Of a stretch of 64,000 bases of DNA, positions 7,285 to 48,757 are shown piece after piece. The position numbers and the translations under genes are program-made. Positions within the stretch are counted from its first letter, which is position 1. Each line of letters begins with the position of its first letter. The stretch is from Rhizophlyctis rosea (lineage: Eukaryota > Chytridiomycota > Chytridiomycetes > Rhizophlyctidales > Rhizophlyctidaceae), in contig JADGJC010000071.1 in assembly GCA_027596075.1 (NCBI GenBank), forward strand, positions 50,480 to 114,479. The letters are read 5' to 3'. The notes below the pieces were generated by a model, which was not told the origin of the DNA, searched no databases, and saw only the letters and a program-made list of their open reading frames with translations.

Positions 7285-9462
7285 ATGCTAAACACAACAA
7301 CAACACAACCTTCGACACGGCCATCTCACTATGATGCCCTAAACGACCTCGACGATAAACGTATTGCTCAGATATCGCCCCTCATACCTCCGCAAATTCT
7401 TGTGGAAGATTACCCTTTGTCCGTTGAGGCTGCCCGTACCTGCTCTGAGGCTCGGCTGGCTGCTGAGAAGGTGGGTTTGGGTGATTTTGGTGGTGTGTAG
7501 TGGTCNNNNNNNNNNTGGGTGGGTGGGTTTGTGGCGGGGGGTGTGGTTGTTTTTTTGGGGGTTTTGTGTGTGGGGGGGGGGGGGGGGGGGGGCCGGGGTT
7601 TGGCCACCGAAGCTGGCAAATTATATCCACGGAGCGGATAAGTGTGAGCGTCAGCGGACGGATCGCCAGCGAAGCTGGCAAAATATATCCGCGAAATGGC
7701 TGAGTGTGAGCGTCAGCGAACTGACTGCCGGCGAAGCTGGCTCACATCCGCGAAGCGGATGGATTTGGCGCGGAGCGCCTATGGTCAATCTGCGAAGCAG
7801 ATTAGTAAGCAAGCGACGTCCGCACAAGTGCGCGCAGCGCACACTCTCTTTTGAGCGAGCGATAGCGAACAGCTCGTCAGCAAAGCTGATACAACTGTGC
7901 GCAGCTCACAGTATACTGGGAACTTCATCCAATCAACAAAACATATACATCCGTGATTTGAAAGCATCTAATTAAGCAAAAATCATTCACCCGCACAGGT
8001 TATCAAAGGCGAAGACGACAGACTCCTCGTCGTAGTCGGGCCCTGTTCTATTCACGATGTTGATGCTGCTCTAGAGTATGCAGACAGGTTGAAGGAGTAC
8101 ATGAACAGACCAGGTGTCAGTGACGACCTCGTCATCATCATGCGCGTGTACTTTGAGAAGCCTAGGACTACTGTTGGTGAGTTTGTGTGACTTTGATCAG
8201 GGGGTGTGAGTGGTGTGGTTTGGTTTGGGATGGTGTGGGATGGTGTGGTGTGGGATGGTGTGGTGTGGAATGGTGTGGTGTGGGATGGGTGTGTGTGTGG
8301 CGAATCAGGATCTTGTGATTGGTGTGTGTGGGATGGATCTGATTTGTGGGAGATGGGTTGGCTGTGAGCGTGTGGCGGGGAGGGTGCGATGCTGGCTTAT
8401 GGAAAGGCATGGGAAGAGAGAAGAGGCATGGGAACCGGAGAAGGGCGACATTGGTGCGCAATCAAGGTGAATGCTGGGGTAGCTGGATTGAGTCGCCCGG
8501 ATTGGACTGGGGCGGGCTGGACTTGGTGGGAATCTCATACGCATATGGCTGGATTGCGTTGGGTTTGGGCTAAATTCGTTTAATTATGTTGTTCGGTGCT
8601 GGAGATAGAACCGTGCAGATTGCAGAATCCATCAATATTAATACGTCATTGTCCCACAGGCTGGAAAGGCCTGATAAACGACCCCAACCTAAACGGCACC
8701 TACACCATAAACCGCGGCCTCAAAACCGCCCGATCCCTCCTCCTAACCCTCAATGAACGCTCCATCCCCTGCGGGTGTGAGTTCCTCGATACTCTCACTC
8801 CTCAGTACATTGGCGACCTAGTCTCCTGGGGCGCTATCGGAGCACGTACTACTGAGTCTCAAGTTCACCGCGAGTTGGCGTCAGGCTTGAGTGTTCCCGT
8901 GGGGTTCAAGAACGGAACGGACGGGAGTGTGAGCGTGGCGGTGGATGCGATTAGAGCTGCTAGTGTGGGCCATCACTTTTTGAGTGTTACTAAGCAGGGG
9001 TTGAGTGCTATTGTTGCTACGACGGGGAATGATAGTTGTCATGTTATTCTTCGTGGTGGGGCTAGTGGACCAAACTACTCCGCACCCGACGTCTCTGCAG
9101 CCGCATCCAAAATCTCGAAAGCCAACCTCCGTCCCTCACTAATGATCGACTGCTCGCACGGCAACTCGTCAAAGAATCACCGTAATCAACCACTCGTCGC
9201 TGCATCTATCGCTGAACAACTCTCCACCCCCAATTCTGCTTCCTCTCCTTCGACAGCCAATAACATCATAGGCGTGATGATCGAGTCACACCTTAAGGAG
9301 GGTAATCAGAAGTTGGATGAGAGCAAGGGACGGGAAGGGTTAGAGTATGGTGTTAGTATTACTGATGCGTGTATTTCTTGGGAGCAGACGGTGGAGGTTT
9401 TGGAGGGGTTGAGGGGGGGTGTTAGGGGGCGGAGGGAGAATAGAGCTGCGGGGAAGGTGTAG
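7285..9462 (+). CDS. ARO3/ARO4: 3-deoxy-D-arabino-heptulosonate-7-phosphate (DAHP) synthase, class I
   Basis: Condenses phosphoenolpyruvate and erythrose 4-phosphate in the first step of the shikimate pathway; cytosolic. Exons 7285-7470, 7999-8176 and 8660-9462 give 388 residues, close to the usual 370 or so. The phases fit at donors GTGGGT and GTGAGT and acceptors ACAG and ACAG. Family motifs are GPCSIHD at 76-82 and [15 protein letters not shown] at 111-125, then the later blocks [29 protein letters not shown] and [11 protein letters not shown]. Fungi carry Phe- and Tyr-inhibited isoforms (Aro3, Aro4); I cannot say which this is. Both introns are unusually long (528 and 483 bases): the first holds a gap, a poly-G run and the hairpin array, the second a GT-rich microsatellite. 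Exons are intact, so the gene is presumably functional. Confidence 0.95.
7506..7592. other. Assembly gap (10 N) followed by G-rich tract with 21-G run
   Basis: Ten N bases at 7506-7515 are followed by TGGG repeats and an uninterrupted G run at 7572-7592, all inside intron 1 of DAHP synthase. A nominal gap beside a homopolymer and GGG repeats suggests the true intron length is unknown here and that the tract may form G-quadruplexes. Confidence 0.9.
7603..7911 (+). repeat. Array of mini-hairpins with GC-GNA-GC cores in an intron
   Basis: About a dozen short inverted repeats follow one another every 20-30 bases. Perfect ones are GCCAGC-GAA-GCTGGC (7665-7679), CATCCGC-GAA-GCGGATG (7745-7761), GGCGC-GGA-GCGCC (7767-7779), AATCTGC-GAA-GCAGATT (7787-7803), GTGCGC-GCA-GCGCAC (7828-7842) and TCAGC-AAA-GCTGA (7877-7889). 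Decayed members are at 7603-7617, 7624-7640, 7712-7725, 7727-7741, 7856-7876 and 7895-7911. The loop is nearly always three bases with a GNA pattern, while the outer stem differs from hairpin to hairpin. The order GCCAGC-hairpin, A/T spacer, ATCCGC-hairpin occurs twice. The array lies wholly inside intron 1 of DAHP synthase, with GNA on the sense strand. Confidence 0.9.
8211..8300 (+). repeat. GT/GGAT-rich microsatellite in intron 2
   Basis: Imperfect tandem units of the type TGGGATGGTGTGG fill this part of the second DAHP synthase intron and grade into (GT)n. The strand is strongly G/T biased. No other feature is visible in the intron. Confidence 0.85.
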
Positions 9463-47750: not shown

Positions 47751-48757
47751 CTAAAATAACGCCGCAACTCCAACTTTGTTCAACACGCTCGGTGAGTAGC
47801 CAACGGTACTGCTCTGCCTTACTCGCTGAAATCCAGTAGGTACGTTGGCTTCGAGGTTGCGAGCGATGTGAGCGTCGGTTTCTGCCCATGACTCCTCTAG
47901 TTTCCTGTTGGGGATGATACGTGTTAGAATTGGATGAAACTGAGATACGGATTTTCAGAAGAAAGGATTGCCCTTCGGCATGACCATTCTGTGGATGACG
48001 TCCCAACCTCATTCATCCTTCCGCTGCGCGGAAATACTTGCCAGCTCCGCTGGCATCCCGCCGCTGCCCTTCCACCTCCCCACCACCCATTCCCTACCAT
48101 ACCCCCAACCACCACCACCCCCCTACAAGAGAGGTCCCGAATGAACAACACCTACTTGGTATAATCCTCCCCATAGGTCTCCCTGACCAACTCCCTTATC
48201 TCCCTCCTCATCTCCATCCGACTCCCTTCACTGGTCTTGACAGGTTGCCGGAACGACTCCGTAAGCTTAAAGTTCTTCTCCTTCTTCGCCACCTCCTCCC
48301 TCACCCACTTCTCCCCCGCCAAAGCCTCAACAACCTTCCTCCTATACATCCTCGTAACAAAATCATTCCCCAAAAGCTCGTCCTCCACCCGAATAATGTA
48401 CTCATCAAAGCCACCATAAGTATCAATAGCGTAAAGAGCGGTACGGGATAACCGGGTGATAACATGCATCCCTAGTGCGTGGCTCCAGAGATTACGGAAC
48501 ATCATATCGGGCAACCAGTATCGGCGGGACCGTTGTTTTTCGTGTTTTGGGATGTTCCATCCGAATTCGATTGTGTCGCCGTGGAGGAGGGTCGGGAAGT
48601 ATTTGTCGTGGGGTTTTAGTTCGTAGGGGAGGCGTTTTCGGGCGTAAATTCGGGGTTGTGCGAGGGGGCCACCGGTTTTGACGGCGTGTTCGAGTTTTTT
48701 GACGATGACGCCGGCGGAGAGGCGGCCGCGGGTTAGGCTTGTTTTTACTGTTCCCAT
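47751..48757 (-). CDS. MRPL24: Mitochondrial large-subunit ribosomal protein bL28m
   Basis: Exons (minus) 48156-48757 and 47751-47904, joined across a 251-base intron with donor GTAGGT and acceptor AACAG after a TCTAAC branch site; 251 residues. The bL28 core is visible: GDTIEFGWNIPKHEKQRSRR, then YWLPDMMFRNLWSHALGMHV, then YAIDTYGGFDEYIIRVEDEL. It matches yeast Mrpl24 in order and spacing, with a fungal C-terminal extension. Read without splicing the frame would stop at TAG two codons past the donor; the spliced tail (LEESWAETDAHIARNLEANV and on to VGVAALF) is clearly coding. The N-terminus (VKTSLTRGRLSAGVIVKKL) is basic as expected for mitochondrial import. The intron carries two mini-hairpins. 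Confidence 0.9.
48019..48055 (-). repeat. Mini-hairpin pair in bL28m intron
   Basis: On the sense (minus) strand: TGCCAGC-GGA-GCTGGCA (48039-48055, perfect seven-base stem), spacer AGTAT, then TTCCGC-GCA-GCGGAA (48019-48033, perfect six-base stem). Compared with ATCCGC/GCGGAT in eS17 and DAHP synthase, the outermost pair is changed on both sides of the stem, so pairing is kept. Confidence 0.85.

Follow-up and report, generated by a model that had tools for sequence, protein, structure and literature searches.

Chains of short hairpins lie inside introns of four genes in a 64,000-nucleotide stretch of DNA from Rhizophlyctis rosea, referred to here as the window (C604:50480-114479 in an assembly of 44.1 Mb and 634 contigs, which was searched throughout). 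R. rosea is a soil chytrid with a saprotrophic lifestyle. The hairpins share a three-base GNA loop closed by GC on either arm (GC-GNA-GC). Scanning for stems of at least 5 bp, with G-T pairs permitted, returned 12 of them: six at 7665-7842 and two at 28759-28812 on the plus strand, and two at 26526-26559 and two at 48018-48055 on the minus strand. The longest chain is hosted by a DAHP synthase gene, whose exon at 8659-9459 matches HDV00_011234 of R. rosea with 100% identity; the next-best named matches are from other chytrids, with at most 76% identity. The annotated protein (P0001/HDV00_011234) joins the flanking exons and skips the hairpin stretch. The other three hosts were assigned by Pfam as eS10 (S10_plectin), eS17 (Ribosomal_S17e) and an L28-family gene (Ribosomal_L28). 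All four chains lie on the sense strand of GT-AG introns, with two host genes on each strand. The initial annotation had described four such genes, and both the hairpin scan and the identified hosts bear this out. The eS10 intron boundaries were set by eye; splice scoring gave a wrong eS10 intron. A second R. rosea protein, HDV00_006330, was matched through the gene at locus L026, and the two matches together mark the analysed DNA as nuclear and of chytrid origin. No Rfam family was matched within the window. Its relevant features are as follows.

7471..7998, plus strand: intron 1 of the DAHP synthase gene, host of the longest chain, GT...AG, 528 nt; flanking exons joined in the protein
7489..7600, plus strand: G-rich sense-strand stretch directly 5' of the chain, including 10 N; G skew 0.66 from splice site to chain
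7603..7919, plus strand: hairpin chain of family A (defined below), with a degenerate tail module CACAGTATACTGG at its end; tail copy at C604:58372-58398, 3 mismatches
7643..7662, plus strand: tandem-GA module with GTCA loop, GCGGAC variant (module scan)
7665..7679, plus strand: hairpin GCCAGC-GAA-GCTGGC (hairpin scan)
7705..7724, plus strand: tandem-GA module TGAGC-GTCA-GCGAAC (56 copies in the genome against 0 in the control)
7727..7741, plus strand: hairpin GCCGGC-GAA-GCTGGC, with one G-T pair (hairpin scan)
7745..7761, plus strand: hairpin CATCCGC-GAA-GCGGATG (hairpin scan)
7767..7779, plus strand: hairpin GGCGC-GGA-GCGCC (hairpin scan)
7787..7803, plus strand: hairpin AATCTGC-GAA-GCAGATT, then the linker AGTA (hairpin scan)
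7828..7842, plus strand: hairpin GTGCGC-GCA-GCGCAC (hairpin scan and genome palindrome search)
7854..7873, plus strand: tandem-GA module with GATA loop (module scan)
26306..26671, minus strand: host intron of eS17 (splice scoring; Ribosomal_S17e)
26526..26542, minus strand: hairpin TATCCGC-GAA-GCGGATG (hairpin scan)
26547..26559, minus strand: hairpin TCAGC-GGA-GCTGG (hairpin scan)
28677..28941, plus strand: host intron of eS10 (by eye; S10_plectin domain upstream)
28759..28771, plus strand: hairpin GGCGC-GGA-GCGCC with the common linker TATGTGAG (hairpin scan, BLAST)
28794..28812, plus strand: hairpin TGGCCAGC-GAA-GCTGGCTA (hairpin scan)
47905..48155, minus strand: host intron of the L28-family gene (splice scoring; Ribosomal_L28)
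48018..48034, minus strand: hairpin TTTCCGC-GCA-GCGGAAG (hairpin scan)
48039..48055, minus strand: hairpin TGCCAGC-GGA-GCTGGCA (hairpin scan)

The run of 10 N in the DAHP synthase intron (7506-7515) immediately precedes a long G run and is probably an assembly gap.

Abundance, relatedness and conserved parts of the chains

Patterns drawn from the chains were counted across the assembly on the plus and minus strands, the same patterns read backwards serving as controls. Three cores at 8-38 nt spacing gave 62+46=108 matches with GCGAAGC as the first core (control 10+10=20) and 28+27=55 with GCGGAGC first (control 1+2=3). The single module CCAGCGNAGCTGG matched 30+18 times against 2+0, GTGCGCGNAGCGCAC 37+31 times against 0+0, and CCGCGAAGCGG 29+21=50 times against 3+7=10. 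The GNNA module TGAGCGNNAGCGAAC (TGAGC-GNNA-GCGAAC) has 36+20=56 copies and the 27-nt tail module, at up to 3 mismatches, 11+12=23, both against 0+0. At the level of chains the excess over control is strong. The three fixed single modules together mark 94-96 loci genome-wide. Merging six patterns gives 131-136 loci among the matches listed, and some of these loci are bound to be fortuitous; this tally took in 100 of the 108 GCGAAGC-first three-core matches and omitted CCGCGAAGCGG because exonic singles occur among its matches. The family that had been proposed from the window is thus recovered at about a hundred loci, with controls far lower. In the window plus 20 blind 10-kb stretches, 16 hairpins were found against 5.3 in shuffles, a modest excess; 12 of the 16 fall in the window, which is therefore rich in hairpins, and the 200 kb of blind stretches contribute just the three-hairpin chain L040 and a single open-frame hairpin (L038). 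Dropped before counting were L009-L012, L016 and L030, as overlapping, and L025, L037 and L038, as two-core pairs within long open frames.

It is very unlikely that the chains are a product of chance, an artefact of the assembly or a remnant of mitochondrial DNA. The available text of PMC10085805 places the first finds of hairpin elements in chytrid mitochondria, which speaks for the last of the three. However, the backwards controls are far lower across patterns. The GT-AG introns that carry the chains belong to nuclear genes, and for one of them HDV00_011234 bears out the junction pair. COX1 was looked for in the assembly and not found; the mitochondrial genome is not in the assembly.

The chains are related to one another. 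BLAST between core-oriented chains gave matches in the same direction in 198/198, 99/99 and 214/214 cases in three runs; as the regions were pre-oriented by their cores, this shows only that linkers and cores agree. The matches span linkers, for example TATGTGAGCGTAGCGAACTGATTGGATCTG and AGATTAGTA, and the order of the hairpins is also common. Homology therefore reaches beyond the stems, as the earlier claim of kinship through shared flanks and hairpin order implied. Two flavours can be told apart: family A comprises different hairpins in a common order, and in family B CGCCGCGAAGCGGTGG is repeated in arrays that have G-rich spacers. Family B, with a G-T pair within CGCCGCGAAGCGGTGG, was seen at ten loci (L001, L003, L007, L008, L014, L015, L020, L021, L023 and L029), all of them sense, as judged by homology at eight and by score at two. 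In total, 25 of 30 chain introns fall into one similarity network (E 1e-5), whose links may partly reflect G-rich spacers and common cores. Outside it are L005, L013, L024, one L003 chain and L017a; the first three have the common chain architecture, yet no similarity at 1e-5.

Tandem units of 122 nt in L013 and 79 nt in L005 were detected, and a tandem-unit search on the L017 chains reported none. At C162:44473-44825, five GTGCGC hairpins on one strand at 83-85 nt spacing form a tandem array of one unit. L051 (C581:128400-129400) and L052 (C604:14300-15000) are paralogous genes carrying homologous chains with compensated stem changes; the L052 gene has a weak Inhibitor_I9 match, and L051 bears a second chain further on. 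Copies of family A often terminate in CACAGTATACTGG (23 genome places; 7893-7919 in the window), within which CAGTATACTG is a perfect palindrome. This tail is possibly the end of the element. The common 3' end CAGTATACTGG is the only terminus feature noted that bears on a DNA transposon or miniature inverted-repeat transposable element.

Introner-like insertion, in which elements create introns by inserting into exons, had been suggested in the initial annotation. The chains are repeated, lie within introns and take a single orientation, as expected of introners. However, 30 chain introns, most with predicted boundaries, yield 70 similar pairs at 1e-5, and in none does the similarity come within 15 nt of the 5' or 3' end; PMC9860276 applies a comparable test. 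An introner origin fails because the similarity is confined to the interior, and we regard it as highly improbable.

Core and loop are fixed while the stems covary. Palindromes of the form GTGCGC-NNN-GCGCAC carry a GNA loop on one strand in 68/74 cases (chance 1/8). The 263 GNA loops comprise 176 GAA, 50 GGA, 29 GCA and 8 GTA, and four exact 27-nt tail modules vary only at the middle loop base (T, A, C and G). For the stems, 141 family A cores were compiled from the loci with flanking sequence and 46 of 100 listed three-core strings, leaving out duplicate loci, overlapping strings, family B and four chance-like strings (C271, C279, C303 and C551). Pairs 1-4 are Watson-Crick in 403/564 cells, compared with about 197 when the arms are shuffled; the loci with flanking sequence alone give 250/352 against 121, and restoring the four chance-like strings gives 405/576 against 198. 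Perfect stems number 42. A single defect in pairs 1-4 is G-U in 16 stems, A-C in 10 and other in 26 (7, 3 and 18, respectively, in the flanked loci alone). Compensated changes are also visible directly: two paralogous introns differ by a double stem change (GATCT/AGATC against GATTT/AAATC), and the arms before the linker ACAA occur as GCCA/TGGC, GTCA/TGAC and CCGA/TCGG. In the sister module the GNNA loop sits on GC/GC, and the GA/GA step beside it may form tandem sheared pairs.

Orientation and placement relative to genes

Strand and placement were assessed for 30 chains, those with flanking sequence, in a family that has about a hundred loci beyond these. Within loci, the hairpins agree in strand. 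Among 42 loci with at least two separate single-module matches, one is mixed (L056, where one hairpin's loop is flipped), and none of the 32-33 loci combining different modules is. A broader tally of 79-82 multi-match loci contains 2 mixed ones among the matches listed, the second being L054 with a flipped loop; that tally mixes overlapping patterns with three-core matches that agree by construction, both of which the 42-locus count avoids. Across the 30 chain regions, sense-strand loops are GNA in 93 cases and GC-TNC-GC in 2, with a third TNC in L056. Single TNC hairpins sit in GNA chains at about 490-504 of L054, 313-328 of L052 and 205-219 of L056 (sense), as if the loop alone had been inverted inside its palindrome. 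The proposal that GNA always occupies the sense strand thus holds for nearly all loops, apart from a few hairpins flipped to GC-TNC-GC.

The strand of the host gene was fixed by protein homology or paralogy for 23 of the 30 chains, and all 23 chains are sense. These are the four of the window and those at L005, L007, L008, L013, L014, L015, L017b, L020, L021, L023, L024, L026, L029, L051a, L052, L053, L054, L055 and L056. L051a was assigned as a paralogue of L052, and L014 through a PDB look-up (TPP2); PDB look-ups for gene strand at L019, L021 and L003 found nothing. The Pfam matches for L015, L052, L055 and L056 fall below the curated cut-off. Seven chains were judged by score alone (L001, L003 twice, L017a, L019, L040 and L051b), of which six favour sense, L001 narrowly (21.3 against 19.2). 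A home-made gene finder was rejected for placing false exons within a hairpin intron, and pairwise splice scoring was used instead. This scoring prefers antisense at L017a, L026, L029 and L056; L029 and L056 were settled as sense by Pfam and L026 by HDV00_006330, and L017a was counted neither way. None of the 30 chains was shown to be antisense, and with homology reaching into the linkers, the conditions that the initial annotation gave for its own refutation did not arise.

The same domain or protein flanks the chain on both sides at L005, L007, L008, L013 and L024; most other intron placements derive from codon and splice scores only, and most boundaries are predicted. At L026, the chain (sense 1452-1528) precedes ATGAGT at 1568, which fits the annotated start, and may lie 5' of the gene rather than in an intron. 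Both this chain and that of L017a are 5' of a start codon, and 0/30 chains are clearly intergenic. Chainless CCGCGAAGCGG singles behave otherwise: of seven scored, two favour sense and five antisense (L006, L018, L022, L027 and L028), and some sit inside open frames. They look like chance matches. Accordingly, the earlier statement that every copy lies in an intron stands for the chains and not beyond them, where single matches fall partly in open frames.

The one-sided orientation could have arisen by loss. In that case the chains would be nothing more than a minisatellite or a non-autonomous dispersed repeat of ordinary type, free to insert at any site and either way round, its antisense intron copies being purged through cryptic 3' splice sites of the C-rich strand. 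At a threshold of 3.5, acceptor-like sites in chain regions number 29 antisense and 9 sense (19.5 and 11.6 in shuffles), and the antisense and sense counts are 37/20 at 2.5, 35/17 at 3.0 and 9/1 at 4.0. Purging could explain the direction because such sites are two to three times commoner antisense at most thresholds. The 23 copies of the tail module (none in the control) and the tandem units are likewise what a dispersed repeat would leave. However, this explanation predicts free intergenic copies in both orientations, of which the 30 chains include no clear case although two lie 5' of a start codon, and it leaves a fixed core and loop with covarying stems unexplained. We treat it as a real possibility that we lean against.

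DNA or RNA as the folded form

Stable RNA tetraloops are of the GNRA type. The GNNA loops of the sister module are GNYA in 49/56 copies and GNRA in 7/56. According to PMC4686876, DNA mini-hairpins are extra-stable when a GNA or GNNA loop is closed by two or more G-C pairs; the loops here are GNA or GNNA and are closed by C-G and then G-C, consistent with the DNA mini-hairpin chemistry invoked in the initial annotation. On the strength of the GNYA-rich loops and the weak G-U excess, a constraint at the level of DNA rather than RNA would be favoured.

The alternative is an element of the pre-mRNA, in which folding of the nascent transcript would make long introns shorter or mask false splice sites, with selection for the sense orientation. 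The sense orientation and the stem covariation accord with it. Furthermore, donor-like sites in chain regions number 15 sense and 2 antisense (11.5 and 0.7 in shuffles), and the donor-like motif GTGAGC occurs within the tandem-GA module. Family B stems have G-T at position 3 in 19/24, although their T side is fixed by the way family B was selected. Folding energies were computed over the first 400 nt of 26 regions, each compared with 12 shuffles, and the sense RNA has the lower energy in 25 of them. However, over whole regions the RNA energies differ little from those of shuffled sequence (mean z -0.44 sense, -0.64 antisense), and those of DNA are slightly low (-0.70 and -1.25). Moreover, the 16 G-U against 10 A-C defects (7 against 3 in flanked loci) indicate no clear RNA preference, and GNRA tetraloops are a small minority. 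A pre-mRNA role, the second suggestion of the initial annotation, therefore finds little positive support and is unlikely in our view.

The sequence before the chains is asymmetric in composition. From splice site to chain, the sense-strand G skew averages 0.57 and is positive in 24/24 chains with at least 25 nt available, compared with 0.08 and 15/28 in 28 predicted control introns (Mann-Whitney p 5e-6; p 5e-4 against 9 long control introns). In the fixed 100 nt before the chain it is 0.51 and positive in 29/30, whereas downstream of the chain it averages -0.08 and is positive in 12/28. At least three runs of 2-4 G lie upstream of 25/30 chains, and runs of three or more G occur at 3.95 per 100 nt there, compared with 1.35-2.59 in control introns. 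The chains themselves have a mean G density of 0.38 (range 0.29-0.49). Chain introns have a predicted median length of 334 nt and controls one of 112 nt. As set out in the available part of PMC4245955, G clusters serve as R-loop initiation zones and DNA of 35-50% G as elongation zones. Going by the G-rich upstream sense strand and the mean of 38% G, although some chains are as low as 29%, the layout of the chains appears to resemble an R-loop zone whose non-template strand bears the GNA.

Our preferred reading, held tentatively, is a nuclear dispersed family of hairpin chains in introns that is both copied and structurally maintained at the level of DNA. Transcription of the host gene would favour an R-loop at the upstream G-rich stretch, and the displaced non-template strand could then fold into a chain of extra-stable DNA mini-hairpins. 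Repair or replication of the folded strand might make, mend and multiply hairpins on that strand only, candidate routes being template switching, hairpin-templated correction and tandem duplication. Perfect short palindromes could arise from a folded single strand by, for example, the stem-loop synthesis that PMC11292364 describes for polymerases such as Pol theta. Introns would be the places that tolerate such growth. A more specific form of this proposal, which we consider rather doubtful, is a class of nuclear repeat in which the conserved unit is the fold that the non-template strand, displaced by transcription, takes up as single-stranded DNA, and which is copied or protected when folded, so that the orientation of the gene is written into it.

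Several observations weigh against this proposal of copying as folded DNA. The copies share descent, so the stem and loop counts overstate independence; the 49/56 GNYA loops do not amount to 56 independent events because many copies may be identical by descent, and common descent alone could retain the GAA loop. Palindromes with CCAGC arms carry GNA in 48/97 only, and reversed arms give 30 palindromes. G density is only 0.29 in some chains, the control introns are few and predicted, and the G-rich stretch might itself belong to the repeat expansion rather than cause it. Finally, the lower energy of the sense strand in 25/26 regions holds for RNA and DNA alike, so the energy model cannot tell the two apart; it has no GNA term, and perfect palindromes are equal on both strands.

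Comparison with known hairpin repeats

The chains form a real and coherent repeat family that is apparently undescribed: in searches of open-licence PMC papers, we found no description of a genomic intron family of GNA/GNNA mini-hairpins. The closest relatives in form are the double-hairpin elements (DHEs), which the available text of PMC10085805 describes as adjacent GC-rich hairpins, potentially mobile and first seen in mitochondria of Chytridiomycota. Like DHEs, two hairpins are joined by ACAA in L029, L040, L055 and L056, here within longer chains. As far as that text describes them, DHEs reside in mitochondria, those of fission yeasts mostly between genes, whereas the chains are nuclear, gene-internal where tested, and sense; greater length and a single fixed loop type also set the chains apart from the DHE descriptions.

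The organelle repeats of Volvox carteri are likewise short palindromes in introns with related nuclear copies. In the available text of PMC2670323 they take both orientations and the nuclear copies are judged inert transfers, whereas here each locus has one orientation. Sponge mitochondrial hairpin elements are also dispersed with stems kept paired, although the available text of PMC2800124 gives them conserved stems and variable loops, the reverse of the fixed core and loop and the compensated, variable stems found here. Introners of Micromonas, Amoebophrya and others resemble the chains as repeated intron sequence, some with hairpins (PMC7789003, in the part available); they have been sought as introns alike up to both splice sites (PMC9860276, likewise), in contrast to the interior similarity of the chains. 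The mini-hairpins d(GCGNAGC) and GNNA belong to the same loop classes and, in the available text of PMC4686876, are used in synthetic DNA, whereas here they constitute a genomic intron family.

The chains are otherwise of the hairpin-repeat kind, and what is unusual is their tie to the sense strand together with DNA-type loops. No tie to transcription is reported, in the texts available, for the organelle hairpin repeats compared above, whereas the orientation of the chains follows the host gene. Should the folding take place in RNA, the chains would make up a collection of structured fungal introns deserving study. If they formed on the non-template strand, they would naturally document the sites at which transcription exposes single-stranded DNA, and whether R-loops make sequence could readily be tested on them.

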